Shown here: positions 10,686-28,990 of the stretch, piece by piece
Layout: every line of letters begins with the position of its first letter
How positions within the stretch are numbered: the first letter of the stretch is position 1
Assembly (NCBI GenBank): GCA_017520185.1
Contig: JAFXGO010000008.1
Location: 1 to 64,000, forward strand
DNA length: 64,000 bases
Reading direction: 5' to 3'
DNA from: Elusimicrobiaceae bacterium
Lineage (GTDB): Bacteria > Elusimicrobiota > Elusimicrobia > Elusimicrobiales > Elusimicrobiaceae
Notes under the pieces: model-generated
What the model saw: the letters and a program-made list of their open reading frames with translations, nothing else
What the model was told of the DNA's origin: nothing
The model's database searches: none
Translations under genes and position numbers: made by a program

Positions 10686-10703
10686 TAATCAGTTAAATCC
10701 CTT

Positions 10704-11667: not shown

Positions 11668-11742
11668 GCGCCCATAGCTCAATGGATAGAGTGTCAGCCT
11701 GCGGAGCTGAAGATACAAGTTCGATTCCTGTTGGGCGCACCA
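11668..11742 (+). tRNA. tRNA-Arg (GCG), island integration site
   Basis: Acceptor GCGCCCA/TGGGCGC, anticodon stem TCAGC/GCTGA, loop CTGCGGA giving anticodon GCG, T-loop TTCGATT and encoded CCA. The 3' part from 11693 is duplicated exactly at 29061-29111, marking this gene as the attachment site. GCG is an uncommon bacterial Arg anticodon, where ACG is usual. Confidence 0.92.
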
Positions 11743-11743
11743 T
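11693..11743 (+). repeat. attL (tRNA-Arg 3' end)
   Basis: 51 bp from GTCAGCCTGC to GCGCACCAT, identical to 29061-29111. It lies within the functional tRNA gene, which stays intact on this side. Confidence 0.9.
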
Positions 11744-11802
11744 TTAAATAGTCTTAAATAGAGTTTAATAAACTTTAATTTACGACGATAAAAATTGGAA
11801 GA

Positions 11803-11832
11803 GACCTCCCAAACAAGCGGAGGTCTTTTTTT
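11803..11832 (+). terminator. Island-borne terminator after tRNA-Arg
   Basis: AGACCTCC...GGAGGTCT with a T-run, inside the island. It replaces the tRNA's original terminator, which now lies beyond attR at 29114-29140. Confidence 0.8.
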
Positions 11833-11867
11833 AATGCAGTTTAATGAAATTTAACCAAAATGAATAC

Positions 11868-11887
11868 AAAATGGACACTTTTTGGAC
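11868..11887 (+). repeat. Terminal 20-bp direct repeat, left copy
   Basis: The 20 bases starting AAAATGGACAC recur exactly at 28971-28990. Both copies lie 90-125 bp inside the att sites in the same orientation. Possible integrase or Xis arm sites. Confidence 0.6.
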
Positions 11888-11962
11888 ACTTTAGTTTTAA
11901 TTAGTAAAATATCATTAATATCCTGCATATATTTTTATGATTTGACAGAATTTATATCCTTT

Positions 11963-13846
11963 ATGACGAGTCCATTGATTGGTATTACGTATGAAATCTG
12001 GCATTCTATGTGTCAGATGTATTCAAAAATTGAGAAAAAATACTATAAAGCCTACATACAATGGTTTCCTTTCAGTCTTCTTAATGACGATGACTGGCTA
12101 TTTTTATCTAGTCCACAGTTTTTCAAAACTTATATTCAAAATGGTGCTTTTGTTTTCTTTCCTCAATTAATGTACCAATCGGAAAACTATCTCTCCAAAT
12201 CAGATGGAAGTTTTCGGGATGCTTCATTAATATCGCCCATACTTTATTTAATATTACAGTCTATGGGGAAAGTAATTGCTAATAATTATATTCCTCAACG
12301 CCCATCAGAAATTTCAGTATACTACGCGGGAAATTATCAATTCAATAGAGCATACTATAAAAAAGATTATGATGATTTTTACAAAGAAATTAACGCGGCT
12401 AGTCTGGATTATCAATATTTCATTAAAACAGATATTTCAAATTTCTTTGCCACTATAGATTTAGATTTGTTGATAAGGAGAATTAATGATAGATGTAATG
12501 GCAAAAATGTAATTTTTTCCCAAACGCAACTTCTTATATACAAAGAATTTCTAAACTATTGTGGTAACGGTAGATTCCCCCTAATAGAAAATAGTGCGGC
12601 CTCTTCTTATTTATCTACCATCATTTATTTAGACCTTGTAGACTATAAGATATACAAATATATCTCTGAGAAGATTAATTGCTTTTCTCATTTTAGGATG
12701 TTTCGTTATGTTGACGATTTATACATATTATTTTCTAGCAATAGCACCCAACAGCAAATTCTCTCCGCAGTAAACGAAATTCGAAATGAGTACTCTTCTA
12801 TTTTAAAAGAATTTAGACTTACTCTAAACACAAAAAAATTTTGCTTCAAACCAACTAGTAATATAAATGAAGAAATAAAAAAGTCGTTGTATGACGAATA
12901 TATTAATGGAGTAGATTTTCCCATTGAAGAAATACTGCAACCATCTCTAGAAAATTTTTTAGACCGCTTGCTGCCTCTTATAACTGCTGGGAATTTAGAT
13001 GTAGAAAAATATAATCAATGTATTTTGGATTCTTTTTCTGAACCTGAACTAGAATATGCGCCTAACGAAATATTCAACTATTGTATTTATAGGCTCAATT
13101 CATCTCTACAAAATCAAGTTGTTATACAAAAAATTAGAAATATCTTATCCTATGACATTTCATTCATTACATTAGACCCCAAACGTCTATCAGTAATGAT
13201 TATGAAAACAAAAGATGAAGCAGCAATTAAGGCTCTTTTAAATCACTTATTTACCAAAAATAAGGATGATACTTGGAATAGGTATCATACAATCATTGCT
13301 GTTGTATATTTTATTCAAAGTTTTTTTCGACATATCGACTTATTAAAAATAATACATATTCGATGTCCAGAATTATATGCCTTTTATGAAGCAAATTGCA
13401 GACAAAATTTTTTTAAAATATTAGAAAATAAACCAAATTTATATTATGCGTTGCTTTTTAATGATTTCAAATCTTGCCTGTTTTACTTTATGTATTTAGC
13501 AGAACTCAAAAGACATAATATAATCATAGCATTTGCTTATTTTAAAAATTTTTTTGACAGAATAACTGCCATTTTAGCCTTTAAAAGTGGCAAAGACAAG
13601 AGAAAAGGTAAACGCCCTCATTTCAAGACATATTATCAAGAAGATGCTACCAAATCTGTCTATAATGAGATAGACGGAAGTCAGGATGTCATTGAAAAGG
13701 CTTGGAAGTTGAGACACTCAAATCCGTTGTCTCACTCCTCAGCAGAGTTATGGGATAATGATTCCAATCAGATGGGAATATTAACAATTATTAGAGCACT
13801 AAAACAATTAATTAATACATTCATACAAAAAACTCCAATTAAATAA
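11963..13846 (+). CDS. AbiA-like abortive-infection reverse transcriptase with C-terminal HEPN-type motif
   Basis: About 627 residues from ATG 11963; an upstream TTG at 11882 is less likely. RT motif A is KTDISNFFATI (Asp157), the motif B region is LIENSAASSYLSTI (207-220) and motif C is YVDD (249-252). A long helical region follows. Near the C-terminus RHSNPLSH (584-591) fits the R-polar-x(4-6)-H pattern of HEPN ribonucleases. This order and length match the Abi/UG reverse transcriptase group, closest to lactococcal AbiA, whose relatives make untemplated DNA and block phage. No ribosome binding site is obvious, so the start is uncertain. Function is inferred by family. Confidence 0.75.
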   Translation: MTSPLIGITYEIWHSMCQMYSKIEKKYYKAYIQWFPFSLLNDDDWLFLSSPQFFKTYIQNGAFVFFPQLMYQSENYLSKSDGSFRDASLISPILYLILQSMGKVIANNYIPQRPSEISVYYAGNYQFNRAYYKKDYDDFYKEINAASLDYQYFIKTDISNFFATIDLDLLIRRINDRCNGKNVIFSQTQLLIYKEFLNYCGNGRFPLIENSAASSYLSTIIYLDLVDYKIYKYISEKINCFSHFRMFRYVDDLYILFSSNSTQQQILSAVNEIRNEYSSILKEFRLTLNTKKFCFKPTSNINEEIKKSLYDEYINGVDFPIEEILQPSLENFLDRLLPLITAGNLDVEKYNQCILDSFSEPELEYAPNEIFNYCIYRLNSSLQNQVVIQKIRNILSYDISFITLDPKRLSVMIMKTKDEAAIKALLNHLFTKNKDDTWNRYHTIIAVVYFIQSFFRHIDLLKIIHIRCPELYAFYEANCRQNFFKILENKPNLYYALLFNDFKSCLFYFMYLAELKRHNIIIAFAYFKNFFDRITAILAFKSGKDKRKGKRPHFKTYYQEDATKSVYNEIDGSQDVIEKAWKLRHSNPLSHSSAELWDNDSNQMGILTIIRALKQLINTFIQKTPIK

Positions 13847-13980
13847 TCTGCCATCTAAAATATCGTTAAGTAGTAGCGACTACTAGTGGCTATGTTCCAC
13901 TTGCCAAAAAGACGGAAAATAGGCGAAAGTATGCCGAAGGAGATTATCAGATAAGAAAAATAAAAATCTAACTTTAAGAA

Positions 13981-14067
13981 AAAAGCCCTAGTTGGAAAAA
14001 TTTTTCAGAAATTTTACTCAAAAAGCCCCTATTAAAATTTTTTTCAGATTTTTAGGGGCTTTTTTTA
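13981..14067 (+). terminator. Tandem 40-bp repeat forming a terminator after the abiA-like gene
   Basis: Two imperfect 40-bp direct repeats (13981-14020, 14021-14060) each start AAAAGCCC. The second contains AAAAGCCCCTA paired with TAGGGGCTTTT and a long T-run, a good terminator. The stretch 13847-13980 has no gene; a small TAGTAG-CGA-CTACTA hairpin lies near 13869. Confidence 0.7.
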
Positions 14068-14108
14068 TATATGTATATGATTTGCTTTGCGAATGGGGAA
14101 AATACTTT

Positions 14109-14130
14109 CCCCGACACGTTTTTGTCGGGG
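14109..14130 (-). terminator. Possible terminator of the restriction operon
   Basis: CCCCGACA and TGTCGGGG form an 8-bp stem just after the res stop. No T-run follows on the minus strand, so it may be a processing or stabilising hairpin. Confidence 0.5.
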
Positions 14131-14145
14131 AATTGAGTAATTTAT

Positions 14146-17100
14146 TTATTTCATCACTTTTTGTAGTAGATTTTCATAAGTATCTACCACATCGTATTGT
14201 ACTGCCTGGGTACTGATGGCCCTAAAGTGTTCTCTAGCACAGGCAATTTTGGCCGATTCTGCTTCACGTAGTTCTAAAGAATCCATCGTTCCCTTCGTTT
14301 CAGCTACAAAGAAAATATGTTTTACTTGGCCTTCGTGGAAAGCAATAGCCCAATCAGGGTTATAATCACCCACAGGCGTGGAGATTTTAAATCCGCTAGG
14401 TAATTTAACATAAACGGCTACTTCCTCGCTGTTATCCAGTTTTTCGGCGAAGTTCTTTTCTTTGTCTGAATCATAGCGCAAATAGTTATATAAATGATTT
14501 TTTACCTCTACAGCATTTACGCCTAATTGTCCTTTAATTGTATTTTCGGTAAAAATACTGGTATTATAGGAATCCTCTAATTTATTGTAGGCTATATGTT
14601 CTATAATAGCGGTAGCCTTCTCATCGTTAATAAGTTTGACTGTTTTAAGAATAAAATCTTCAGGATTGAATTTAAACTGGTCAAATTGTGTTTTATCTAT
14701 TCCTTTAAGGATTTCCACCACTGCAGAACGGGTTAAACCTGTTCCTTCCACTATTTTGCCCACTAAATCATACTTGATATTTTTATTAACGGTGACTTCG
14801 GCAGACAATGTGCGTCCGCCTTCATTGCGCGTAAATGCCTCTCCTTTTTCTAATTGTTCTTTAGACTCAATACTATCCATCTTCCCTTTTTCTATTTGAA
14901 AGACGATTTTATTAATTTGTAGTTTTGTATTGATGGCATTGATGGCTTTTTTAATTAGTTCATCCGTTTTAAAATCCACTATATAGATAGATTTTGCATT
15001 AATTTTTTGCCATAACATTTGAAATTCTTTACTGGCTAATTTATCTTGATTAACAGAGAGTTCCACATTGTTAGCACGGGCATTATCAATTTTTAGTTTG
15101 CCAGTGGTTAAGCGGTCCAGTAAAGCCACTAAATCTGTTTGATACGGCATAATTTCATCAGGAAGGGTTAAGGTTCCTGTTTGTTTGTCTTGATAAAATT
15201 CAGGAGTTAATGCGCCTTTTTTAAGGTATCCTTCCCCAATCAATCCTTCTACTATATCATCTGCCAGATTTTCGTCAATTTTGCGTTCTTCTCCTTGAGT
15301 ATTTCTTAAGATAAGCCCAATGAAAGATTCTGCCTTCAGTTTAGTGATGCGATGCTTAGAGTCTTCTGCTAATTCCTGCTGTAACCCTTGAGCAAAGGAT
15401 TCATAACTTTCGTTTGCAATAACAGTTAGCACATTGATATTGTGCACTTCTGCTCCAATAGCATTTTCATCCTGTCTTTCTCCGTTCTTGTTAACGGACA
15501 AACGTAACCCACGGCCTACTTCTTGACGTTTACGTATTTCAGCACTACTTTCTTTAAGCGTACAGATTTGGAATACGTTCGGGTTGTCCCACCCTTCACG
15601 TAGAGCGGAGTGACTAAAGATAAACCGCACCTTAGATTTAGCATCTTTGGTAGATAGAGAAAGTAAGGATTCTTTGTCCTTCATAATCAGGTCATACGCA
15701 TCCACGTCATCGGAGGTTCCTTCTTTTTTATTAGCAATCTTACTCGCTACCATACGTCCCTTTTTATCAATAGAAAAATATCCCGCGTGCGTGGCCTGTG
15801 AAGTAATGCTCTCTAAATACGCTTTGTAAGATTCATTTAGGAATAAATCCGCCTTAATTTGGTTTAAAACGTTGTTATATTCCTCTTCAAAAATTTGGGC
15901 ATATTCTCCGTTGGCTTGATTGCCGTTCTCATCATACTGGCGGTATTTGGCCACTTCGTCAATAAAGAACAAAGACAACACTTTTATTCCTTTCTCATAG
16001 AGTTCTTTTTCTTTATTTAGGTGGGCCAAAATAGTTTCGCGTATTTGAATACGGCGTAGTTGCCCTTCGGCTACTTTACCCATTACATCCCCTACGTATA
16101 ACCGTTTGCCGTTTGTAAATTCCAAAGAGTTATCCCGTGCATCTATACTGGCCACTACATAACCCGTTTTGTATTCAGGCAATTCATTGGATAAATCATA
16201 CAGGTTATCCCCTTGTTTGACGGCACGAATCACAGGACGAATAGAAGTTTTACCTTTTACTTCAAATTCTAACGTAGCCGTGGGGTATTTATCTTTAAAA
16301 ATATTGATGGCCGATAAATATAAATAACCATCTGTACCCGTACTGCCACTCGCAGTAACCCCTACTACTTCAATCTTTTTGACTAATTTTTTGTTATAAG
16401 CATCAATAGCATCTAACCGATAGACCACGTTGTATTCTTTTTTAGGAGTGGCCGAGTAGCGAAGGGTTAGTAACGGCTTAAACTTTTTCAAATTTTCACT
16501 TGTTGCTTCACCTTCTACTGATTGCGGTTCGTCAATAATTAAAACAGGGTTTGTGGCAGCAATCACTTCTATAGGACGGCGGTATTTGAACTCTTCTAAT
16601 TCCATTGTAATACGGCGGGCATCTTTTCCACGTGCATTAAACGCTTGGGAGTTGATAATCATTACGTTAATACCACTATCCATAGCAAATTGTTCCAGGT
16701 CGGTTAGACGGGCGGAATTGTAGATGAAAAACTTAATTTTCTTGCCGTATTCTTCAGCAAAATGGTCTTGGGTAATTTGGAATGACTTATATACCCCTTC
16801 ACGGATAGCCACAGAAGGGACAACTACAATAAATTTGCTCCATCCATAACGTTTATTTAACTCGTAAATGGTTTTGATATACGTGTAGGTCTTACCTGTC
16901 CCCGTTTCCATTTCTACGGTTAAATTATACTTCCCTTCCAGGGAGTCTGATAAGCGGATTTGGTTGCGTTTTTGAACTTCGTGCAAGTTTTTAAGCACGT
17001 CTTGCTCTACGGCAGGTAATAAACGTTGATTATTAAAGCCCGTTTGTTCAATATCAAACTGTCCTGCGGCTACGCGCCCCATATCTACCAAGTAGGAAGA

Positions 17101-17187
17101 TTGCAAATAGGGTTGCCCTGCAAATACATCACAGACGGCAAGGGAGGCATCTTCTTGAAATTTTTGATGTTTAAATTGCAATTTCAT
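14146..17187 (-). CDS. res: Type III restriction endonuclease subunit (Res)
   Basis: 1013 residues. An SF2 translocase has Walker A TGTGKT (95-100), DEPQ in place of DEAD (219-222), a SAT motif and motif VI in RKRQEVGRGLRL. The C-terminal PD-(D/E)xK nuclease is visible as NPDWAI with D945, then VAETKGT with E963 and K965. With Mod it forms the type III complex that translocates or slides on DNA and cuts near unmethylated sites. It starts 10 bp after mod with AGGGG upstream. Last gene of a four-gene minus-strand operon. Confidence 0.92.
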   Translation of the reverse strand: MKLQFKHQKFQEDASLAVCDVFAGQPYLQSSYLVDMGRVAAGQFDIEQTGFNNQRLLPAVEQDVLKNLHEVQKRNQIRLSDSLEGKYNLTVEMETGTGKTYTYIKTIYELNKRYGWSKFIVVVPSVAIREGVYKSFQITQDHFAEEYGKKIKFFIYNSARLTDLEQFAMDSGINVMIINSQAFNARGKDARRITMELEEFKYRRPIEVIAATNPVLIIDEPQSVEGEATSENLKKFKPLLTLRYSATPKKEYNVVYRLDAIDAYNKKLVKKIEVVGVTASGSTGTDGYLYLSAINIFKDKYPTATLEFEVKGKTSIRPVIRAVKQGDNLYDLSNELPEYKTGYVVASIDARDNSLEFTNGKRLYVGDVMGKVAEGQLRRIQIRETILAHLNKEKELYEKGIKVLSLFFIDEVAKYRQYDENGNQANGEYAQIFEEEYNNVLNQIKADLFLNESYKAYLESITSQATHAGYFSIDKKGRMVASKIANKKEGTSDDVDAYDLIMKDKESLLSLSTKDAKSKVRFIFSHSALREGWDNPNVFQICTLKESSAEIRKRQEVGRGLRLSVNKNGERQDENAIGAEVHNINVLTVIANESYESFAQGLQQELAEDSKHRITKLKAESFIGLILRNTQGEERKIDENLADDIVEGLIGEGYLKKGALTPEFYQDKQTGTLTLPDEIMPYQTDLVALLDRLTTGKLKIDNARANNVELSVNQDKLASKEFQMLWQKINAKSIYIVDFKTDELIKKAINAINTKLQINKIVFQIEKGKMDSIESKEQLEKGEAFTRNEGGRTLSAEVTVNKNIKYDLVGKIVEGTGLTRSAVVEILKGIDKTQFDQFKFNPEDFILKTVKLINDEKATAIIEHIAYNKLEDSYNTSIFTENTIKGQLGVNAVEVKNHLYNYLRYDSDKEKNFAEKLDNSEEVAVYVKLPSGFKISTPVGDYNPDWAIAFHEGQVKHIFFVAETKGTMDSLELREAESAKIACAREHFRAISTQAVQYDVVDTYENLLQKVMK

Positions 17188-17196
17188 AGAAAACCC

Positions 17197-19167
17197 CTAA
17201 ATTACTTTAACTTTGGTATCAGGAGAAAGCAATTTGAAGAGTTCCCCTACGTTAATCTTGGCAGGGCTGTCCGTAAATCCTGCATCACGGAATACCACCC
17301 GCAACGGCTTTTTGGCGGCAATGTGGCGGATAATATCTTCGGTGACATTTTCATCAAAACAAGCCACTAAATCCCCATTATTAACCGTATGGATAGTATA
17401 AGAACCCACTTTTTCAGAAGTGTGCGGGTAAGATAACGGCAAGCCCCACTCTAACATACAACCATAAAGCAAGTCCATATCGTTGCGGTCTTCTTTGATG
17501 TTACTGGTCATTTGAGACAGTAAATCTTGTGTGTAGTCGGCAGGGTTATAATAAACATCTTTCATATTGCTGCCTGCCAGTTTAAACACACGGAAACCAC
17601 CGTCAAAATTGGATTCTGGATGTTCCTCTTTAATTTGTTTAGCGGCCCGTCGGATACGTTCTTTACCGATTTCACAAATATTCTTATATCCTGCTTTGTA
17701 TGCTTCGCTTGTTTTATCACACTCTTCGGGCAGTTGTACCATAATAAATTTACGATTACCACCATCTTCTGCGTTGAGTCTCATAACAGCGTGGGCAGTT
17801 GTGGCAGAACCAGAGAAGAAGTCCAAAAATATTCCTTTGGAATCGTTTAACATTTTGGTTAATTGTTTAATAAGGCGAACTGGTTTTTTACCATTTTTGT
17901 ATGCAATGCCTCCTTCTTTGGAAACATTACCCATATCAATATAAAACCCGCTCCACCAATCTCCACGAATTTTACGAAGACCATCTTCTTGATAATAGCC
18001 GTCAGTTATACCCCACGAATCTTTCAAGCGTAGCAACTGCCGCATATTCCCTTTGGAGTCTAAGGTTAGGAGATACTTTTTCCCTTTTCTATCTATTTCT
18101 TTCCAATATCCCTGTCTTAATTCTGTTATATCTTCACAATCAGGAGATTTATCAGAGCGGACAATTTCGGCGAGATGAGAGCGGACAATTTCGGCGAACT
18201 CTTCACTTTTTTTGTATGCTTCTGCTAATTTTAGAGGTTTTTTATTATTACAATCTTTTGGAAACCGATAATCATACAACTCACTTAATTGCCCAATTTC
18301 TCCATTTGATTTTAAGAATAAACTATAGTGTTCATCATATTCTGGTCTTAAGTCATAAAGTGGGCACTTTGCAATATCTTGGTGGCCATCTTTAGAATAA
18401 CATAAGATATACTCTGCATTTTTGACAATATTTCCATCCTGGGCGGCTTTCACTTTCATCCCTTGTGTTGTACTCATTTGACAATGAATTGTTGTAACAA
18501 AATTCTCTTCTCCAAACACTTCATCACATATTTTTCTTAAATTTTCAACTTCATTATCGTCAATAGAAATAAAAATCACGCCATCGTCAGTTAACAAGTT
18601 GCGAGCAAGTTTTAAGCGCGGATACATCATAGAACACCAATCACTATGAAAACGCCCATTAGAATCGGTATTTTTGACGAGTCTATTTCCTTCTTCATCT
18701 ATTCGTTCGCCCGATTCTTCATACTCTTCCTGGGACATTGCAAAATCATCTCTGTAAATAAAATCATTCCCCGTGTTATAGGGCGGGTCAATGTAAATCA
18801 TTTTTACTTTGCCTAAATAACTTTCTTGTAAGAGTTTAAGCACATCTAAATTGTCGCCTTCAATATAAAGGTTTTGGGTAGTATCCCAATTTACACTGTC
18901 TTCTTTGCAAGGGCGGAGCGTTTTGCGAATTGGTGTGGCGGCTTCCAAGATGGCCTGTTTTTTACCTACCCACGTAAAATCGTAGGTTTCACGGTTATCT
19001 ATGGCAGAATCAGATAAAATTTGCCTAAGTTTATCAAAATCTATGGCTTTTTTAAGTGTGCCATTATCATCTTTGGCTTCGGTTAGCACTTCAGGGAATA
19101 GTTGCCCAATTTTAGCAATGTTTTCCTGTGTTAAATCTTTGGTTTCAAATTTCATCTTCTCCGTCAT
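17197..19167 (-). CDS. mod: Type III adenine-N6 DNA methyltransferase (Mod)
   Basis: 656 residues. The motif order is beta class: catalytic DPPY (127-130) precedes the AdoMet-binding FSGSAT (451-456), with the target-recognition region between. It methylates one strand of an asymmetric site and guides Res. In the target-recognition region EIVRS occurs twice (about 326-338) from a 24-bp in-frame tandem repeat. GGGAGG precedes the ATG. Lies between the DUF4391-like gene and res. Confidence 0.92.
   Translation of the reverse strand: MTEKMKFETKDLTQENIAKIGQLFPEVLTEAKDDNGTLKKAIDFDKLRQILSDSAIDNRETYDFTWVGKKQAILEAATPIRKTLRPCKEDSVNWDTTQNLYIEGDNLDVLKLLQESYLGKVKMIYIDPPYNTGNDFIYRDDFAMSQEEYEESGERIDEEGNRLVKNTDSNGRFHSDWCSMMYPRLKLARNLLTDDGVIFISIDDNEVENLRKICDEVFGEENFVTTIHCQMSTTQGMKVKAAQDGNIVKNAEYILCYSKDGHQDIAKCPLYDLRPEYDEHYSLFLKSNGEIGQLSELYDYRFPKDCNNKKPLKLAEAYKKSEEFAEIVRSHLAEIVRSDKSPDCEDITELRQGYWKEIDRKGKKYLLTLDSKGNMRQLLRLKDSWGITDGYYQEDGLRKIRGDWWSGFYIDMGNVSKEGGIAYKNGKKPVRLIKQLTKMLNDSKGIFLDFFSGSATTAHAVMRLNAEDGGNRKFIMVQLPEECDKTSEAYKAGYKNICEIGKERIRRAAKQIKEEHPESNFDGGFRVFKLAGSNMKDVYYNPADYTQDLLSQMTSNIKEDRNDMDLLYGCMLEWGLPLSYPHTSEKVGSYTIHTVNNGDLVACFDENVTEDIIRHIAAKKPLRVVFRDAGFTDSPAKINVGELFKLLSPDTKVKVI
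18155..18202 (-). repeat. 24-bp tandem repeat in mod
   Basis: GAGCGGACAATTTCGGCGA starts at 18155 and again at 18179, a period of 24 bp. Copy-number change would add or remove 8 residues in frame within the target-recognition region. Confidence 0.8.
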
Positions 19168-19176
19168 AAATCCTCC

Positions 19177-19827
19177 CTAAATCTCCCTTAAAATCTGTTC
19201 TAATTCGCGCACTTTGCTTTTAAGTTCCACTTGGCGATTGTATTGTTTCTCTCTACGGATTTGGGCTTCCAACTTATCAATCTTGACTTGTATTTCCCGT
19301 TGCAGGATTGTTTTTTCCACCCGCTCAGCCATTTTTTTGCCATCTTCTAGGGTTAAATTTTCGCCTGCTACTGCCTGCACTAAGTTTTCATACACGTTAT
19401 CAAGTGTAATTCCCGCAATGGTAAAATTGAGGTCTTCTTTTGTCATCCAAGGTGTATAAAAATAGCGTTTAATGGAGTAATATGCCTTGTTAGAGCCGTC
19501 TTTTAACTTGAAGGCTATACCTGCCTTAACTTCGTTATTATGCTCTAAAATAAACAGAATATGATAGGGTAGTTCCTTATCCCATTGCAGTAAAACACGC
19601 TCATCTAATTCAGGTTGATTAAGTAGCAAGTGAAAAACTTCTATTTCCGTTACGTATTTTCCTTTGCTAATGTTGAGTGTGTCTTCCGCCAATTTATAAG
19701 CCCAATGCACAGATTTTACTTGCTGATTAAATGCTTTGCGGACACTTGGCGTAAAATGTAGTTGTGTGGCTAATTTTTCTTTAGCCACACGCCGATTAAA
19801 AAATGTCTGCGAGGGAAAATTAAACAT
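19177..19827 (-). CDS. DUF4391-like protein of the restriction operon
   Basis: 216 residues from ATG 19827, which gives the family-like MFNFPSQTFFNRRVAKEKL start; an upstream ATG at 19854 would overlap the helicase. The C-terminal third (QVKIDKLEAQIRRE onward) is a coiled coil. Genes of this type sit beside type III mod/res genes in many bacteria, and the biochemical role is unknown to me. A bridging subunit between helicase and Mod is a guess. Confidence 0.65.
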   Translation of the reverse strand: MFNFPSQTFFNRRVAKEKLATQLHFTPSVRKAFNQQVKSVHWAYKLAEDTLNISKGKYVTEIEVFHLLLNQPELDERVLLQWDKELPYHILFILEHNNEVKAGIAFKLKDGSNKAYYSIKRYFYTPWMTKEDLNFTIAGITLDNVYENLVQAVAGENLTLEDGKKMAERVEKTILQREIQVKIDKLEAQIRREKQYNRQVELKSKVRELEQILREI

Positions 19828-19832
19828 ACGCC

Positions 19833-22800
19833 CTATTTGATGACAAAGAAACAAATAAGTTCAAAGTCATCTAACCCTTTGATGTTTCCTGTAAGGGCCG
19901 TTGTCCCGCCAGGAGTAAATAAACTATCAATATCGGACTCTTCTTTTACGTTGATAATGCTTTTAATGGCATCCGATAGAAGTTCCGAATATACCTGCAT
20001 ATTTTTGCCGTCTTGTGTTTCTGTATTGAAGGCTTTACAAAGTTCTTGGTTGGGAAGTGTTTTCCCTTTGCATAAAAGACGCATTTTGTCCAAAATGGAT
20101 TTGGGGGCTAAGTAATCATAAACTACTTGCCCATTCATATCTACATACACCATATAGAACGGATGTAGGCCGTTCTTTTTATCTATATTGATAGTAGAAC
20201 TCACATTGCGTAATACATAGACCACGCCAGGAGGACAATCAGCCGTGCTTTGCAAAACAGCGTGTAAGCCGTGTGGGGCAAGTTCAGCATTAGGGTTTTG
20301 CTTCATATATTCCAGTAAGTCCAAGCGAAACTCATTTAACCCTAAATCCATAATAGATACGCTTTCGTTTACATCTTCCAAGTCCACTACTTCAGATTGC
20401 AAGCGTTCCAGTTGTTTTTTGCGGTATTCCAAATCGCCCTTTTCTTCGGCGTTGATAAGGTCATCGTCCCCCGTTGATGTCATAACAGATATTTTCATAC
20501 GGGTTTCTACACGACTTTTTAACTGGATATAGTCATCTAATGTTAAATCAGGCCAGAAGTTGACCATCTGGATACGTTCGTTTTTGCTACCAATACGGTC
20601 TATACGACCAAAACGCTGAATAATGCGTACAGGGTTCCAGTGAATATCGTAGTTGATCAGGTAGTCGCAATCCTGTAAGTTTTGCCCTTCTGAAATACAG
20701 TCCGTAGCAATTAAAATATCAATGTTATTTTCGGTATCTTTGGGGAAAAGTATGTCTCTTTCTTTTGAAATAGGCGAAAATAAAGTCAAAATATGGTTCA
20801 AATCACTGCTGACCGCATATTTAGGCAAAGTGGTTTTTGCATTGCCTGTACCCGTTACAAGGGCTGTGTGAATCCCGTATTTTGCTTTTATGCGATGAGC
20901 AAGGCTGTTGTATAGGTATTGTGCCGTATCTGCAAAAGCCGTAAAAATGATGATTTTTTTGTTATTGGCATTGATAGGATTATCTATTTTTTCTCTTATT
21001 TTCGTAATTAAATCTTGCAGTTTAGAATCGTGCTCTGGGGTGATAGGTTCTAATAATGCGGAAATACGCTTAAGAATTTCCGAGTCGGCTATCAATTCTT
21101 TACGCCAGGATTGATAATCCATATCGGCCAAATCTACTTTTACTTTTGAAGCAGAGGCGAATAAATCTTCATTTTGGTCATCAAAATCTAAATCTTCAAG
21201 GTCATCAAACTCATCAACCGTATGTTGGGCGCCTTTGGAGTGTTCAAATTGATTTATCGTTTCTATATTATCTTCAATAAAGTTCTGAATACGTCCAACG
21301 GTCAGGCGGAAAGATTCTACACTGCTTTCCAAACGTTTAAGCAAATTAATGCTCATTAAGCGTCTTAAGCCTTCCTCCCGTCCTACACGGGTTAGATTCT
21401 TGTTAGATTCTATGTATTTATCCATCCGACTGGGATGAATGAATTTGGAAGGGATATAGACCGCCAAAGTAAGAAGGCCTAGCAAGGAGTAAATATTGTT
21501 AAAAGATAAGTCTTCACTTTGTAAATCTGTCAGTGTGGAGCGAATAGATAGTGGTTTGTTACGCGTAGGAAATTGCCCTACTTCTGCCATATTGTAATAC
21601 TTTTGTATATGCTTACGAGAACGAGCGATAGTAACGCTATCTAATACTTCAAAGAAGTCAAAATCTAACATTTTGAGAAGTCTTTCTGTTTTGCGTTCTT
21701 CAGCAGGCAATAAGCTCCATTCGTTAAATTTGCTTTGAGCACGAGAAAAAATTGTTTCAATAGAGTGTTCAGTTTTTAACTTTTCGTTGATAATAGCAGG
21801 AGTGCCTTCATAGGCTAAGGCTAACTGATTTTTAAGGTCCACAAAGCGATTATTTACAGGGGTAGCGGACAACATTAATACCTTGGTTTTAACTCCAGGG
21901 CGTATAACTTGATTGAGTAAACGAGAATATCTGTTTTCTTTGCCATCTTTGCTAATTTGGCCACCATTACGGAAATTGTGGCTTTCATCTATTACAATTA
22001 GGTCATAGTTTTCCCAGTAAATGCGAGATAAATCTATGCCATTAGAATGTCCTACAGTACGAGATAAATCCGTGTGATACAATACATCATAATGAAGACG
22101 GTCATTGGCGATGGGGTTATTCTTATAATTGGCTTCAAAAGTTGTCCAGTTATTAGATAGTTTTTTAGGACATAAAACTAGGATATTTTTGTTTCTATCG
22201 TTATAGTATTTCATTACCGCTAAGGCAGTGAATGTTTTTCCAAGACCCACGCTATCGGCTAAAATACATCCATTGTATGTTTCTAACTTGTTAATAATGG
22301 CCAAGGCCGCATCTTTTTGGAAATCATATAGTTTATTCCAAATTTGACTATCTTTAAATTTAATGGCTTCATTGGGGAGAACATCCTCGGAAATATCGTT
22401 TAAGAACTCGCGAAAGATATTATATAAAGCAATAAAATACACGTACTGGGCGGGATTCTCTTTATAAGCCGCTGTTATGCTATCTATTACTTGTGCCGTA
22501 ACATCTTGGAAATGCTCTTCGTCTGCCCAAAGTTGATTGAAATTATCCAAATAACGTTTGCTTGCAGGGTTGTCTATTTTTGTTACTAAATTGGGGAGAT
22601 TATTTCCCTTTGCTTCTCCTAAGTCTACCGTAGTGAATCCGTGAATTGGAAGGTAGGTTACAGAGTCAGAAGTTGATATATTAATGAAGCCGTTCATAGG
22701 TTCATTGCTGTTATTTGACTTGAAAACTACTTTATCTCTTATCCAATTAACACATTCTTGTGCAATGGCTTTTTGGGTCAGCTCATTGCGAAGTTTAATT

Positions 22801-23063
22801 TCAAATTCAGTGCCGTAAATACTACGTTCGCGAGACAATTGCGGAATATAGAATTCCCTTTGTTCTTTGGGGGCTTTTTCTGTAGAAAATGTGGGTGAGG
22901 TGAAAATAAAACGTAGTTCAGAGATATTTTCTAATTTTTGTTTTAAGGTGCGATAAGCATAAATGGAAAAATAAGCCGCGGCAATACTCAGTTTGCTGTC
23001 TTTTTTTATCTCTTGTTCTAAATCATCTTTTAACCGTTCATTAACATTATCAATTACTTTCAT
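19833..23063 (-). CDS. SNF2-type helicase with N-terminal PLD-like region, defence associated
   Basis: 1076 residues from ATG 23063 (AGGTGG upstream); a longer reading to 23198 would cover the palindromic block. The N-terminal 150 residues resemble the phospholipase-D-like module of defence helicases, but no clear HxK pair is visible. Helicase motifs are SVGLGKT (271-277), DESH (359-362), LSATPVNNR, ATDCISEGQNLQ and QRFGRIDRIGS. It is the promoter-proximal gene of the helicase-DUF4391-mod-res operon and may be needed for restriction or act as a separate effector. Confidence 0.85.
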   Translation of the reverse strand: MKVIDNVNERLKDDLEQEIKKDSKLSIAAAYFSIYAYRTLKQKLENISELRFIFTSPTFSTEKAPKEQREFYIPQLSRERSIYGTEFEIKLRNELTQKAIAQECVNWIRDKVVFKSNNSNEPMNGFINISTSDSVTYLPIHGFTTVDLGEAKGNNLPNLVTKIDNPASKRYLDNFNQLWADEEHFQDVTAQVIDSITAAYKENPAQYVYFIALYNIFREFLNDISEDVLPNEAIKFKDSQIWNKLYDFQKDAALAIINKLETYNGCILADSVGLGKTFTALAVMKYYNDRNKNILVLCPKKLSNNWTTFEANYKNNPIANDRLHYDVLYHTDLSRTVGHSNGIDLSRIYWENYDLIVIDESHNFRNGGQISKDGKENRYSRLLNQVIRPGVKTKVLMLSATPVNNRFVDLKNQLALAYEGTPAIINEKLKTEHSIETIFSRAQSKFNEWSLLPAEERKTERLLKMLDFDFFEVLDSVTIARSRKHIQKYYNMAEVGQFPTRNKPLSIRSTLTDLQSEDLSFNNIYSLLGLLTLAVYIPSKFIHPSRMDKYIESNKNLTRVGREEGLRRLMSINLLKRLESSVESFRLTVGRIQNFIEDNIETINQFEHSKGAQHTVDEFDDLEDLDFDDQNEDLFASASKVKVDLADMDYQSWRKELIADSEILKRISALLEPITPEHDSKLQDLITKIREKIDNPINANNKKIIIFTAFADTAQYLYNSLAHRIKAKYGIHTALVTGTGNAKTTLPKYAVSSDLNHILTLFSPISKERDILFPKDTENNIDILIATDCISEGQNLQDCDYLINYDIHWNPVRIIQRFGRIDRIGSKNERIQMVNFWPDLTLDDYIQLKSRVETRMKISVMTSTGDDDLINAEEKGDLEYRKKQLERLQSEVVDLEDVNESVSIMDLGLNEFRLDLLEYMKQNPNAELAPHGLHAVLQSTADCPPGVVYVLRNVSSTINIDKKNGLHPFYMVYVDMNGQVVYDYLAPKSILDKMRLLCKGKTLPNQELCKAFNTETQDGKNMQVYSELLSDAIKSIINVKEESDIDSLFTPGGTTALTGNIKGLDDFELICFFVIK

Positions 23064-23105
23064 TATTACCCACCTAATCCTATTATCAGGTGGGAATAAA
23101 AACGG

Positions 23106-23350
23106 CCATTTAAGACGCGTCTCTGATAGTGCCGCAGTCATAAATAGCCGTAGTTCGCATATAAAAATATATGCGAACATTCGGCACCATATACCCAAGG
23201 GATCAGCTCGAGTATATGGCGCCTAAACCAGCTATTTTTGGACTATCAGAGAACTTCGTTTGATTGAAGCCCACCCTATTTCTTCAATAGGATTCCAAAA
23301 ACAGTATTAATTGTATAAGCAGGTTCTATCTCTTAAAACCTGCTGAAAAT
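23106..23350. other. Nested palindrome block; candidate replication origin or structured leader
   Basis: Outer stem TCTCTGATAGT (23120-23130) pairs with 23242-23252. Inside it AAATAGC (23142-23148) pairs with 23231-23237. It encloses a 26-bp hairpin, GTTCGCATATA and its complement (23153-23178), and a CCATATAC/GTATATGG hairpin (23187-23219), giving a branched cloverleaf-like fold. GTGCCG (23129) and CGGCAC (23182) could form a pseudoknot. Two more hairpins follow: ATTGAAG/CTTCAAT (23263-23288) and AGCAGGTT/AACCTGCT (23318-23344). It lies between the helicase and rep starts and does not code. Confidence 0.7.
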
Positions 23351-23521
23351 CGTTATATTCACCTCAAATATAGGGTATATCTTATCATAATACCATATTT
23401 GTTCTCCCTTTTGATATGTAGCATTTATTTTTATATTTCCCTTAAATTTTCATCATTTTTTCTCTTTTTTTAGGAAAAATTCTCCTCTGGAAAACAACTT
23501 AATAAGACTTTTTCTCTCTCG

Positions 23522-23763
23522 GTAAACAAATAAGGTTTACATTTATATATTAAGTAGAAAGGAAGAATATGTTTAGACGGTAAAATTGAAATTGGTTTAC
23601 ACTTATACATTAAGTAGAAGGACAAGATAGAAGAATGTAATAAATTTTGTGGAAACTAAAATCATTTCATAATGCCAAACAGAGAGCAAATAACGTTTAA
23701 AATTATCTATCTTTCTAAAGAAAAATTAAAAAAGGTTTACACTTGTATATTTGTTGAACACTA
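23522..23763 (+). repeat. Iteron-like direct repeats upstream of rep
   Basis: Three GGTTTACA(C/T)TT(A/G)TA-type repeats start at 23534, 23594 and 23734. The first two also share ATTAAGTAGAA. An inverted GTAAAC/GTTTAC pair lies at 23523-23540. Repeat spacing is 60 and 140 bp. They may bind Rep or a repressor. The rest of 23350-23815 holds no gene. Confidence 0.6.
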
Positions 23764-23815
23764 AAAGGTTCCCAGAGCAAAAGTCTGGATTTTAACTGAA
23801 GAGGTGTCAACAAAT

Positions 23816-24892
23816 ATGATTGACCGAATGAAAGGTGGAATTGAACCACAAGATGTAAAAGAAATATGGACAGGAAGTATAGAGTTATTGAAAGAAGACC
23901 AAATTATGAATCCGAAAAATAAACCCGTTGTGTATTATCATCGCCAAAAACATCAGTTTGTTTTTGATGTAGCCGTACCTAGATGCTTATTTGGAAATAA
24001 TCTAGCAGAAGCAACAGATGTAGACTTAGATAAAATTGTGTTGGAAATTCAAAAGGCATTCAGATATAAGGGGTTAGACGTGTCGAAAGAAGCCATCTAT
24101 AATGCAGGGATTTATTACTTAGAGTACGGCAAGAACATTATTTTACCTATCAATGTGTGCTTGCTTGCCTTGTTTAAGCGGCTAGGGAAATGTTTAACCA
24201 AAGGATATAACGAACCCTCTTTTCATCACTATAGAAAAGGCAGAAGGGAAGGGTATAAGGTAGGTATAAGTCTTGAGAGCAAGGATGTGGGATTCTATGA
24301 CAAAACAACAAAAGAATTGGTAAGCAAAAGTAAGCACAATAATTCGAATAAAGAAGTTTATTGTAATTTGCTACAGAAGCAAAAACAAGTGCTGAGATAT
24401 GAAGCATCTTTCTATGGGAGTACTTCCGTAAAGAGTAATTTGTCCAAGTTTAAAAAATGCGATGGAAAATTTACTTTACGGGATGTATGGGATAGTAAAT
24501 TAGCACAGGCCATTCTTGTAAGTGCCTTAAATGAAGTGGTAGATAACCTTCCCCCTGCAGGTCATTCTAAGGAGATGGAACTCAGAGAGATAGCACAGGC
24601 AATAGAGCAAGGCGTGTCTGTAAGTGATATTGCCCACTATAAAGGGATGGAAGCATTGGAAAGAAGGCACGGAGCAACCACCATTAAAGAACTGTTTAAC
24701 CCTATAGCAAAGCGATATGGCGGACAAAGAGCACAGTATGGGCAGTACACCACAGCCAAAGGGAAGCAAGCAGAACTAAGTAAATATTTTAAACCTAGGC
24801 GAGAATATTTAATCAAAAAAATCATACGGACGGTTAATAATTTTAAGCCTATTCGGGTAAATGGCAAAACCAATGAACTAATTGAAGGATAA
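23816..24892 (+). CDS. Phage gene II/X-like replication initiator
   Basis: 358 residues from ATG 23816; GAAGAGG lies 11 nt upstream, and GTG at 23804 is less likely. The start MIDRMK, the FYDKTTKEL block (160-168), the LRYE block (193-196) and a basic C-terminus fit the filamentous-phage gpII/plasmid Rep family that nicks one strand to start rolling-circle replication. The nicking tyrosine cannot be assigned by eye. It lies downstream of iterons and palindromes, as expected for rep next to its origin. Could instead be a relaxase-like protein. Confidence 0.55.
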   Translation: MIDRMKGGIEPQDVKEIWTGSIELLKEDQIMNPKNKPVVYYHRQKHQFVFDVAVPRCLFGNNLAEATDVDLDKIVLEIQKAFRYKGLDVSKEAIYNAGIYYLEYGKNIILPINVCLLALFKRLGKCLTKGYNEPSFHHYRKGRREGYKVGISLESKDVGFYDKTTKELVSKSKHNNSNKEVYCNLLQKQKQVLRYEASFYGSTSVKSNLSKFKKCDGKFTLRDVWDSKLAQAILVSALNEVVDNLPPAGHSKEMELREIAQAIEQGVSVSDIAHYKGMEALERRHGATTIKELFNPIAKRYGGQRAQYGQYTTAKGKQAELSKYFKPRREYLIKKIIRTVNNFKPIRVNGKTNELIEG

Positions 24893-24915
24893 TAGAAATA
24901 TTTAAAGGAGCAACT

Positions 24916-25107
24916 ATGAAAAACTTAATTAAACAACTAGAAGAATACAGACTTAAAAATAGACTTACACAAGAAGAACTAGCCAAATTGTTAGGCGTGT
25001 CTTGCGTATCGGTCAATAAATGGCTTAATGAGCATACGAAACCCCAAAAGTTGCAAGTTTACCAAATTGAACAACTGCTAAAGAAACAGGAAGGGAAAGA
25101 CGAGTAA
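24916..25107 (+). CDS. Small Cro/CI-type HTH regulator
   Basis: 63 residues, almost entirely an XRE helix-turn-helix (RLTQEELAKLLGVSCVSVNKW). AAAGGAG lies just upstream. 23 bp after rep and probably co-transcribed. Likely represses rep or excision genes. Confidence 0.8.
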   Translation: MKNLIKQLEEYRLKNRLTQEELAKLLGVSCVSVNKWLNEHTKPQKLQVYQIEQLLKKQEGKDE

Positions 25108-25227
25108 GGATGTATATTATGTGAGAATAAGTAAGGAAAAATAACAGTAAAGAAAATAGATAGATAGATAAAGTCTTAAGAATACAAGGCAATCTTAACA
25201 AAATTACAGGATGTAGGAGAACTGAAA

Positions 25228-25308
25228 ATGAAAAGAAATGAAATTATGTTAAAGAAACTGAAATCTAATAAAAATAGATTATTAGCATTCGAAGGAGATA
25301 TGAAATGA
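25228..25308 (+). CDS. 26-residue leader peptide coupled to the excisionase-like gene
   Basis: ATG 25228 is preceded by AGGAG at 25214-25218. The Lys-rich peptide ends in an ATGA overlap with the next gene, which suggests translational coupling. The upstream stretch 25108-25227 has no gene and contains a short GATA repeat near 25158. Confidence 0.45.
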   Translation: MKRNEIMLKKLKSNKNRLLAFEGDMK

Positions 25309-25517
25309 AAAGAAGGTTAGTAAATGCTAAAGGATTAGCAGAATACATTGGCAGTACAGAAGGAAGTATTAACACGTACAAATGCCAAGGCAAAATTCCA
25401 AAACGATGGATAGTGCCTCTAGGAACAAGAGGAGTTCGTTATGATTTGGAAGAAGTCGACAAAAGCATTGAAGATAGCAAATTGTCTTTAGAAAGTATTT
25501 TTAAGGTTCAAGCCTAG
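25305..25517 (+). CDS. Excisionase-like winged-HTH protein
   Basis: 70 residues. NAKGLAEYIGSTEGSINTYKCQGKIP resembles the MerR/excisionase helix-turn-helix (HTH_17 type) and a short wing follows. Likely the recombination directionality factor for the integrase at 26086, or a repressor. It starts within the stop of the 26-residue leader. Confidence 0.65.
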   Translation: MKRRLVNAKGLAEYIGSTEGSINTYKCQGKIPKRWIVPLGTRGVRYDLEEVDKSIEDSKLSLESIFKVQA

Positions 25518-25633
25518 TGAGATTTATTAAGTGAACGGACAGAGGTGCTTTATCCCTCGTTTTAACATATACAATGAAGTATCCACTCTACACCCGATTT
25601 ACTTGATAAAGTGGACAAAGTACCTCTAACCAA

Positions 25634-25813
25634 TCATTTAGTAGATTTTTTAGACGGAATATTTAAATACTGTTCTAATGCTTTGCGGATTATCCAAGAA
25701 ATACTTCGTTCTTGCTCTTCAGAATATTTTGTCAGAGCATCCTGTATTTCCTTGGTAGCCACAAAGGCAATAGTAGGTTTAGATGAATCAGAATTTGATG
25801 TTTTATTTATCAT
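25634..25813 (-). CDS. Ribbon-helix-helix (Arc/CopG-like) repressor, 59 residues
   Basis: ATG at 25813 (minus), TGA at 25634. Residues PTIAFVATKEIQDALTKY form a beta strand plus helix, followed by EERSISWIIRKALEQYL as the second helix. This is the CopG/Arc pattern with the conserved S-x-S/I and helix-2 hydrophobics. It opposes the int operon and faces an AT-rich region with repeated ATTGA/TCAAT sites, so autorepression is likely. Confidence 0.65.
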   Translation of the reverse strand: MINKTSNSDSSKPTIAFVATKEIQDALTKYSEEQERSISWIIRKALEQYLNIPSKKSTK

Positions 25814-25837
25814 ATTTGTATTGTACCAAATTTAACT

Positions 25838-25910
25838 ATTGAAAGCTATTGAATATTTAAAGTCAATATGATATATTTAATTATATTGATACATATTGAA
25901 TAACAATATA
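25838..25910. promoter_or_regulatory. Probable operator between RHH repressor and integrase operon
   Basis: At least five ATTGA-type sites in both orientations lie in 73 bp, including CAATAT...ATATTG. They sit between divergent starts at 25813 and 25941, as arrays of RHH dimer sites do. Confidence 0.45.
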
Positions 25911-25940
25911 AAATCAAACTAATTTGAAAGGTAAATTGAG

Positions 25941-26099
25941 ATGAAAAACCGTAAAATAGTCAAATTAAATCAAAATGAAACGGTATTTATTGATTACCAT
26001 ACCCCTAGTGGAATAAAACGTAGGACATTATTATTGATGGGGTCCCAATTAATATCGTGGGAAATAACATTAAGGAAATTTGAAAATGAGCAAGCATAA
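25941..26099 (+). CDS. Small protein overlapping the integrase start
   Basis: 52 residues starting MKNRKIVKLNQNETVFIDYH. GAAAGG lies upstream. It overlaps the integrase by 14 nt in another frame, so it may couple int translation or act as a second directionality factor. No known domain. Confidence 0.45.
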   Translation: MKNRKIVKLNQNETVFIDYHTPSGIKRRTLLLMGSQLISWEITLRKFENEQA

Positions 26100-27096
26100 A
26101 GGTATTAGAATAAATAAAGAAAAAGGAACGATAACCCTGGATTATCGTGATAAACAAAAGAAGAGACATCGTGAGACAATTACAGGAAGTCTTACTTTTG
26201 CAAAAGAATTATTAGCAAAGCGTCGAGCGGAAATTGCGGAAGATAAATTTTTTCCAGACCGCCAAAAACAGAAACTGACATTTATGGAAGCGGCAGATAA
26301 GTATTGGGCTCTGCATCTATCAAAAAAGAAAAGTGCACTTAAAATGAAATATACGCTTGAATATTTGAAGAAGCAGTTTGGGAATATTCCGTTGGCTAGT
26401 ATAACGGCAGAAGAAGTTCAGAAATTTTATAACGAACGAATGGCTGAAACAACATCATCCACCGCTAACAGACATTTAACGTTGATGAATGCGATTATCA
26501 ATAAAATGATAAAACTTAAAATCTACAAAGGTGAAAATCCTTGTGTAGGCGTGGTTAAGGAAAAAGAACAGCCCGCACGTGAAAGATACCTAACCAAAGA
26601 GGAAATTAGGGATGTGCTAACTTATGTGCCTGAGCGTTCACAAAATCTGATAGCATTGGCCATATCTACGGGTATGAGACAAGGCGAAATTATGAACCTG
26701 GATTGGAAAGATATTGATTTTACAAGTAACATTATCAACGTAGATAAAACAAAATCAGGTAAGAAACGAAGGGTTCCAATGATGGCTTCTTTGAAGAATT
26801 TGTTAATGAATATGAATCCTCAAAGAAATGGCAAAATATTTACCCTATCTGTTAAACAAGTGAATTACGACTTTAAGCACGCGTTAGAACAGGCCAAAAT
26901 TGAAAATTTCCGTTTTCACGATTTAAGACACACATTCGCTAGCCATTTTATGATGAATGGAGGAAATCTTTATACATTGAAAGAGATTTTAGGCCATTCA
27001 GACATTCGGATGACTCAGCGGTATGCCCAATTAAGTCCTGATTTTGCAAACGAATCTATAAAACTTCTGAATGATTTAGTTCCAGTTTTAGTGTAA
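26086..27096 (+). CDS. int: Tyrosine recombinase (phage-type integrase)
   Basis: 336 residues from ATG 26086 (AAGGA 9 nt upstream). An arm-binding domain (about 1-60), core-binding SAM-like domain (about 62-160) and catalytic domain with R198 (STGMRQGE), a Lys in the VDKTKSG hairpin, H278-x-x-R281 (HDLRHT), H304 (LGHS) and Y313 (RYAQ). All catalytic residues are present. It should catalyse integration at the tRNA-Arg(GCG) 3' end. It lies 2 kb from attR. Confidence 0.92.
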   Translation: MSKHKGIRINKEKGTITLDYRDKQKKRHRETITGSLTFAKELLAKRRAEIAEDKFFPDRQKQKLTFMEAADKYWALHLSKKKSALKMKYTLEYLKKQFGNIPLASITAEEVQKFYNERMAETTSSTANRHLTLMNAIINKMIKLKIYKGENPCVGVVKEKEQPARERYLTKEEIRDVLTYVPERSQNLIALAISTGMRQGEIMNLDWKDIDFTSNIINVDKTKSGKKRRVPMMASLKNLLMNMNPQRNGKIFTLSVKQVNYDFKHALEQAKIENFRFHDLRHTFASHFMMNGGNLYTLKEILGHSDIRMTQRYAQLSPDFANESIKLLNDLVPVLV

Positions 27097-27108
27097 GAGG
27101 TTATTACA

Positions 27109-27405
27109 ATGGAAAATCAAACTAATCAAAATACAATTAATGAAAACAATCAAAAAGCAACAAAACAAGAAATAAGGGTTAAACAAATGGAAATGACAAT
27201 CTACAGTTTCCCTAAAAATACATCCGAGGAAATACAATGTAAAATTGCTGATTATTCGGGCAAGTTATGTTTAGGATTGTATACCTATAAAAAACAACCT
27301 AATGGAACTCTAGAACCTACTAATAAAGGTATTTGTATGAAAGTAGAAACTTGGCAGGAATATTTACCTAAAGTATTAAAAGCGGCTCAAAATGCTCTAG
27401 AATAG
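27109..27405 (+). CDS. PC4/YdbC-like ssDNA-binding candidate
   Basis: 98 residues. A polar N-terminus is followed by a core (about 43-96). SGKLCLGLYTYKK, the turn NGTLEPTNKGICMKVETW and a final helix resemble the PC4 coactivator fold, where a GISL-x-VEQW element precedes the helix. It follows int by 12 bp. A role in binding single-stranded DNA during transfer or replication is inferred from the fold only. Confidence 0.45.
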   Translation: MENQTNQNTINENNQKATKQEIRVKQMEMTIYSFPKNTSEEIQCKIADYSGKLCLGLYTYKKQPNGTLEPTNKGICMKVETWQEYLPKVLKAAQNALE

Positions 27406-27432
27406 CCTTGCTTAACCCGATTATTGGAAATC

Positions 27433-27475
27433 CTACACATAGTCTGCTAAAAGTTATGTGTAGGCATTTTTTTTG
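27433..27475 (+). terminator. Terminator of the integrase operon, sharing AbiEi-type half-sites
   Basis: CCTACACATA (27433-27442) and TATGTGTAGG (27456-27465) form a stem followed by eight T. The same CTACACA half-site recurs just downstream. Confidence 0.8.
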
Positions 27476-27478
27476 CTA

Positions 27479-27514
27479 ATCTACACAAAAAAGTATTAGA
27501 ATATGTGTAGATTT
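27479..27514 (+). promoter_or_regulatory. Candidate AbiEi operator over the abiE promoter
   Basis: AATCTACACA (27479-27488) and TGTGTAGATT (27505-27514) are perfect inverted repeats flanking a TAGAAT-like -10 (27498). AbiEi-type antitoxins are known to repress by binding inverted repeats at their own promoter. Confidence 0.55.
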
Positions 27515-27533
27515 GAAAATAGGTGTTTGGGAA

Positions 27534-28100
27534 ATGGAACAACTAATTGGATATTTTACGACTAAACAACTTATACAGAAAGGACTTACTACATACAAGA
27601 TTCGCTCTTTGTGTGCACAGGAGATATTGCTTAAAATCAAAAAAGGTCTTTACCGAAATACAGAAATGTTCTACCAAGACCAAAGTTTTCTGGACGTATG
27701 TCAGGCAATTCCAACGGCTGTTGTTACCAGTTATTCCGCCTTGTCCTATTACGGACTTACTACCTTTATACCACAAGAAGTTTTTATTTGTATTCCCCAG
27801 AACCGAAAAATTACGAAAATAGATTATCCGCCTACTGTTCAGTACCGCAGGGATGTTGCTCTATTTAAAGAGCATATTGTTACAGAGAGACGAGATAAAT
27901 ATTCTTTTCGCATTTATGATATGGAAAAAGTAGTTTGCGATACCATCAAAAATCGCAAAACTATGGGAATGGACACGGTAAAAGAGGTTTTGCGAGAATA
28001 CCTAAAACACAAAGATAATAATTTACTGAAACTCTATGAAACCGCTAAAAAATGTAAAGTATTTGATGTCCTAGATGAATTCCTAACGGTAATGAGGTAA
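27534..28100 (+). CDS. abiEi: AbiEi-family antitoxin
   Basis: 188 residues from ATG 27534. The N-terminal winged helix (FTTKQLIQKGLTTYKIRSL, about 10-60) includes the LLKIKKGLYRN wing typical of AbiEi. A C-terminal antitoxin domain has YDMEKVVCDTIKNRK. It is a type IV antitoxin that represses its operon and counters AbiEii. It ends 3 nt before abiEii. Confidence 0.85.
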   Translation: MEQLIGYFTTKQLIQKGLTTYKIRSLCAQEILLKIKKGLYRNTEMFYQDQSFLDVCQAIPTAVVTSYSALSYYGLTTFIPQEVFICIPQNRKITKIDYPPTVQYRRDVALFKEHIVTERRDKYSFRIYDMEKVVCDTIKNRKTMGMDTVKEVLREYLKHKDNNLLKLYETAKKCKVFDVLDEFLTVMR

Positions 28101-28103
28101 ATT

Positions 28104-28958: not shown

Positions 28959-28970
28959 CCCATTTTAGAA

Positions 28971-28990
28971 AAAATGGACACTTTTTGGAC
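28971..28990 (+). repeat. Terminal 20-bp direct repeat, right copy
   Basis: Identical to 11868-11887. Between it and attR lies a 15-bp palindrome TTGTATC-C-GATACAA (about 29013) and a TTTCCC...GGGAAA pair. No gene lies in 28959-29060. Confidence 0.6.

Follow-up and report, generated by a model that had tools for sequence, protein, structure and literature searches.

Lactococcal AbiA, of which a structure has been solved (8oz7; Gapinska et al. 2024, PMC11077055), is the closest described system to the gene analysed here. In the sections of that paper drawn on here, the protein dimerises through its HEPN domain, and one subunit, with Tyr298 (or Tyr303) as its primer, synthesises untemplated single-stranded DNA. 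Polymerase activity and defence were both lost in a D240N mutant, polymerase activity and protection were abolished by Y298F/Y303F, and deletion of HEPN cost the protein its dimers and its polymerase activity (PMC11077055, same sections). The window, by which we mean the whole 64,000-nucleotide stretch of DNA that was analysed, carries a gene that is an intact, well-preserved member of this known anti-phage family and no new kind of system. We are confident that it is defence cargo of an integrative element in a tRNA-Arg gene, and that it most likely works as lactococcal AbiA does.

Family, fold and conserved residues of the window AbiA

The ORF begins with an ATG at 11963, ends with a stop codon at 13846 on the forward strand, and is open over its full length (Table 1). 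A start at the in-frame TTG upstream, at 11882, would add 27 residues; several relatives begin, in the alignment, at a TTG at 11975 (Leu5), so that the true start may be there instead of at 11963. TIGR04499 matched the protein with 639 bits (cut-off, 250) over residues 7-617 and model positions 2-615 of 615, the PADLOC AbiA model matched with 702 bits, and PF18732, the C-terminal HEPN of AbiA, with 131 bits (cut-off, 27). In a phmmer search, residues 5-617 aligned to Lactococcus AbiA (PDB 8oz7_A; E of 6e-71), the single strong sequence match among solved structures, and a profile of eight AbiA proteins scored 805 bits against 8oz7 and 32 bits against the next RT. Because the RT and HEPN assignments come from family models and the alignment to 8oz7, they are independent of motifs. 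The motifs agree with them: TDISNFF (RT motif A, residues 156-162) and YVDD (RT motif C, residues 249-252) are intact. The original prediction of an AbiA-like RT with both motifs in place, made from the letters of the sequence, is borne out by AbiA models at 639-702 bits.

Residues were compared across eight full-length AbiA proteins, an alignment that excluded the broken copies in genomes G1197 and G1049 and the distant G620 proteins; the window protein is 29-44% identical to the other seven and 29% identical to lactococcal AbiA. RYVDD (R248-D252, with the catalytic pair) is invariant in all eight, as are the residues corresponding to lactococcal Asp240, Asp241, Tyr298, Arg581, and His588 and to lactococcal Tyr27, Tyr130, and Tyr134 (Y31, Y132, and Y136 in the window), which include DNA-contact tyrosines. 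Y376 (lactococcal Tyr363) is Tyr in seven of the eight and Phe in one. The second tyrosine, Tyr303, is Tyr in only three and is Asn315 in the window, the one exception among the residues tested in lactococcal AbiA, all others being kept; we infer that the priming loop of the window protein would work with one tyrosine only, Y310 being the sole conserved priming tyrosine.

The full-length AlphaFold model was poor (pLDDT of 64.6, with long low stretches) and was therefore used only for its best matches, alongside a separate model of the HEPN domain. In Foldseek, its best matches were four 8oz7 chains (E of about 1e-24), ahead of Abi-P2 (1e-7); comparison with AbiA and AbiK structures, which the original prediction had proposed as a check, favours AbiA. 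Modelled alone, the C-terminal 139 residues reached a pLDDT of 82.5 and lay nearest to the HEPN part of 8oz7 (Z of 15.9 and rmsd of 2.7 over 129 residues), giving the C-terminal HEPN fold for which that prediction had also called. 8oz7 ranked first again in a Foldseek search with the HEPN model alone, at an E of 1.5e-3 only. Archaeal HEPN, Csm6, sacsin, and HEPN-MNT toxins gave Z scores of 7.0-9.1, values which, by the warning of the tool, helical bundles can reach by common arrangement.

The HEPN-type motif expected at the C terminus is present as well: residues 584-591 are RHSNPLSH, which places R584-X6-H591, the motif used as a criterion for catalytic HEPN RNases, inside the HEPN fold. By itself this motif proves little, since 782 of 2000 shuffled versions of the C-terminal domain contained R-X4-6-H by chance, and we rejected RHSNPLSH alone as proof of HEPN. 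Judged from the aligned proteins, what goes beyond chance is its position inside the PF18732 domain together with the invariance of Arg, Asn, Pro, and His. Only the window protein has His directly behind the HEPN Arg; the other seven have Asn.

Table 1. Features of the AbiA gene and of the element that carries it (window coordinates)
Feature	Coordinates	Strand	Evidence
tRNA-Arg (gcg), intact integration target	11668..11742	+	ARAGORN, Rfam
attL, 50-bp repeat in tRNA 3' part (last 50 bases)	11693..11742	+	100% identical to 29061-29110
Integrated element, 17,368 bp, lower G+C at AbiA end (0.30-0.33)	11743..29110	.	att repeats, empty sites
Subterminal repeat, left, TGGACACTT twice	11868..11891	+	96% identical to 28971-28994
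AbiA, 627 aa: RT-like polymerase, helical domain, C-terminal HEPN	11963..13846	+	TIGR04499, PADLOC AbiA, 8oz7
Catalytic Asp251-Asp252 of RYVDD (lactococcal Asp240-Asp241)	12713..12718	+	invariant 8/8
Tyr310, predicted priming tyrosine (lactococcal Tyr298)	12890..12892	+	alignment, 8/8; role from PMC11077055 (sections drawn on here)
HEPN_AbiA_CTD (PF18732), residues 496-623	13448..13831	+	131 bits; model pLDDT 82.5; Z 15.9 to 8oz7 HEPN
RHSNPLSH, Arg584 and His591, R-X6-H	13712..13735	+	R584, N587, P588, H591 invariant 8/8
Type III restriction subunit (Res)	14146..17187	-	PADLOC REase_III 1007 bits
Type III methyltransferase (Mod)	17197..19167	-	PADLOC MTase_III 715 bits
DUF4391 protein	19177..19854	-	PF14335 158 bits
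HKD/Snf2-type helicase	19833..23198	-	PADLOC C3a139 402 bits; weaker DrmD matches
Putative replication protein	23804..24892	+	weak match to G2P-like Rep of sister element
Small excisionase-like protein, named by position beside integrase	25305..25517	+	64-66% identical in 3 sister elements; no Pfam match
Tyrosine integrase	26080..27096	+	PF00589 112 bits, phrog_1 266 bits; 63-64% identical in 3 sister elements
AbiEi antitoxin	27513..28100	+	PADLOC AbiEi 149 bits
AbiEii nucleotidyltransferase toxin	28104..28958	+	PADLOC AbiEii 275 bits, PF08843 139 bits
Subterminal repeat, right	28971..28994	+	motif recurs in 4 sister elements, about 80 bp before attR
attR, 50-bp repeat	29061..29110	+	downstream sequence directly follows tRNA in two empty-site genomes

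The integrative element in tRNA-Arg

AbiA is the first gene of an element that shows the marks of a tRNA-targeted integrative element, namely an integrase, att repeats in a tRNA gene, and an empty site in relatives; a PC4 protein and small HTH proteins are also aboard. Of 30 tRNA loci examined, 2 show the empty site (L019 in G043 and L020 in G032): the tRNA there directly adjoins both its left neighbour gene (81% identical) and its right one (86-91%). In the genus, 5 of 66 genomes, counting the window's own, have a full tRNA and an exact 50-bp second copy on one contig. The core pattern of the subterminal repeats gave two matches against 0.02 expected, and the left repeat is a likely integrase arm site. 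Compared with the G2P-like Rep of a sister element, the ORF at 23804-24892 showed 26% identity over 57 aa (E of 5e-5 for a single comparison); it had no family match, and no PF05144 match was found in G000. Upstream of it, at 23534-23760, stand three GGTTTACA...TATATT-like units that resemble origin iterons.

Of the four sister genomes with such a second copy, three (G042, G046, and G007) carry an integrase 63-64% identical to that of the window, accompanied by PC4 and excisionase-like genes; G034 retains an integrase remnant only. The element in G046 has an RT that is best classed as a retron RT (PADLOC RT_VI, 228 bits), as well as HipA and a G2P-type Rep; by eye, the RT in G007 has the same start, and the RT in G042 is split. 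Across loci L047-L054 (G042, G046, G034, and G007), tRNA-Arg appears as an integration hotspot, with elements of about 18-22 kb and related integrases. The cargo of the sister elements comprises retron-type RT, HipBA, SIR2-like, OLD-like, and type III R-M-like genes and helicases, and three of the elements carry a G2P-type (PF05144) rolling-circle Rep. The vehicle of this AbiA is a tRNA-Arg element; its sister copies bring further defence genes, among them a retron-type RT, so that the same chromosomal site takes up varying defence cargo.

The stretches before and after AbiA folded better than shuffles (z of -3.6 and -3.5, respectively), a signal much of which is probably explained by terminator-like stems. 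Stem-loops followed by T runs lie at 11798-11835, just inside attL, and at 14016-14070, behind AbiA; the former could end transcription of tRNA-Arg after integration. An Rfam search for an associated non-coding RNA gave no match in the stretches flanking AbiA, and the count of promoter-like sites barely exceeded that in shuffles (16 versus 14.4).

Proposed mechanism and the role of the HEPN domain

That the window protein polymerises DNA, primes on itself, dimerises, and defends against phage is predicted from a homologue at 29% identity. A dimer would be held together by the HEPN domains; the protein would attach the first nucleotide to its own Tyr310, the YVDD active site would extend it, template-free, into single-stranded DNA, and this DNA synthesis would stop the phage. 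That the gene is instead a decayed passenger without function in the island is improbable: related copies are indeed broken, by an insertion in G1197 and by internal stops in G1049, but the window copy is open throughout and keeps the residues tested. Misreading of a group II intron, retron, or other RT as AbiA is a negligible prospect. The RT core is common to all of these, and there are weak matches to group II RTs (34 bits), Drt3a, and other UG RTs, against which stand AbiA models at 640-700 bits and the HEPN domain itself. A tree of 23 rows was built from the RT part only (the first 335 residues of AbiA-like rows), taking in the N-terminal half of the broken G1197 copy and leaving out the broken G1049 copy and L007-L013. 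In it, a single branch (support, 90/99; recovered in 100% of 200 bootstrap trees) separates the nine AbiA rows from the rest, with five group II RTs lying elsewhere, and the row nearest to the window protein is L064. We therefore reject a group II intron origin (TIGR04416, 34 bits with a cut-off of 300), and the phylogenetic check that the original prediction had set itself comes out on the side of AbiA.

The harder question concerns the HEPN domain. An RNase role for it was proposed already in a HEPN survey of 2013 (PMC3710099), and the original prediction likewise suggested that the polymerase could make DNA and the HEPN part cleave RNA; in such a two-headed protein, cleavage would follow upon sensing of the phage. 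In the sections of PMC11077055 drawn on here, several ssRNAs given to lactococcal AbiA in vitro were not degraded, and the R581A, H588A, and double mutants kept their anti-phage activity unaffected. These two results point to the HEPN of AbiA as most likely the dimerisation part; the Arg and His of the window protein most likely do not cut RNA in ordinary defence, and the claim of RNA cleavage is left unsupported. The assays used a few short RNAs, and, as the authors themselves state, the protein had not been triggered by infection (PMC11077055, same sections). The HEPN fold is borne out by the model, and R584, N587, P588, and H591 are invariant in all eight proteins, of which the other seven are 29-44% identical to the window protein; R-X6-H is found also in the C-terminal half of G1197, in the broken G1049 copy, and in the distant AbiA-like protein of G620. 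These residues could serve folding or dimer contacts; invariance of the Arg and His fits badly with a purely structural role. We consider a two-headed protein unlikely. The same holds for a HEPN that is a conditional RNase, silent in the published tests for want of a trigger, which is suggested by the invariance of Arg, Asn, Pro, and His even though the lactococcal Arg/His mutants cost nothing against the phages tried, and to which we give perhaps one chance in several. If it were true, AbiA would hold two weapons, each against different phages. The comparison sharpens the question why AbiA retains a seemingly dispensable Arg/His pair in its HEPN domain.

Distribution and comparison with known systems

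TIGR04499 scored above its cut-off in 1 of 340 genomes of the window's phylum (the window's own), in 1 of 393 genomes of the order of the Bacteroidales MAG and 1 of 257 of its phylum (in both cases that MAG), in 6 of 345 genomes of the order of Lactococcus piscium (itself included, one broken), and in 2 of 338 of its phylum (itself included, the other broken). One of 72,556 plasmid records, a Lactococcus plasmid, carries AbiA. No homologue was found in phage records queried with the window and lactococcal proteins, in viral contigs with four queries, or in genome contigs in a first scan (query A1); a scan of genome contigs with the HEPN part returned two loci. In L. piscium and on the Lactococcus plasmid, too, AbiA has an integrase as its neighbour. 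Because its nearest relatives are in other phyla and its vehicle is mobile, horizontal gain is the simplest history for the window AbiA. The original prediction had expected this copy to widen the range of AbiA. What stands is its rarity: the copy is complete, and in its phylum 339 of 340 genomes lack an AbiA that exceeds the cut-off; AbiA outside lactococci was already known, both from the 29 AbiA RTs in complete genomes given in the part of PMC8934634 used here and from the Bacteroidales MAG. Where PMC3710099 mentions Elusimicrobi, in the passage concerned, it refers to AbiJ.

At L082 (G1197, 9297-14917), the N-terminal half of AbiA is 51% identical to that of the window, and an insert of about 3.7 kb with ORFs of 444 and 469 aa splits the gene just before the priming-tyrosine region; judged by eye, the 444-aa ORF resembles an IS110-type transposase. 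L062 and L061 (G620, of the order of the Bacteroidales MAG) encode distant AbiA-like RTs that score below the TIGR04499 cut-off, at 135 and 239 bits, and the 648-aa G620 protein has RNNNTISH, an R-X6-H, at its end. At L078 (G900, 2599-3990), a 463-aa ORF directly follows the AbiA stop and was unmatched by the window proteins used as queries.

The sister tRNA-Arg elements (G042, G046, and G007) share with the window element the att site, integrase, excisionase-like and PC4 genes, and subterminal repeat, but differ in having other cargo, a G2P-type Rep, and no AbiA. The nearest full-length relatives of the protein, in the Bacteroidales MAG Cd354_bin6 (L045/L059; 41%) and G900 (L064; 44%), have other neighbours, and the type III R-M of the window is unmatched in the stretches examined. 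AbiK and Abi-P2 (7r07 and 7r08) resemble AbiA in their RT-like core and helical domain and, according to the sections of PMC11077055 drawn on here, share with lactococcal AbiA a protein-primed, untemplated DNA synthesis; unlike the window protein, they have no HEPN, form other oligomers, and match it less well in structure (E of 1e-5 to 1e-7). Lactococcal AbiA (8oz7; Gapinska et al. 2024, PMC11077055, as far as drawn on here) has the same three-domain order as the window protein and aligns with it over the full length, with YVDD, the priming tyrosine (Tyr298, Y310), the DNA-contact tyrosines, and the HEPN R-X6-H in common; it differs at 29% identity, with Asn315 in the window for its Tyr303 and His for Asn after the HEPN Arg.
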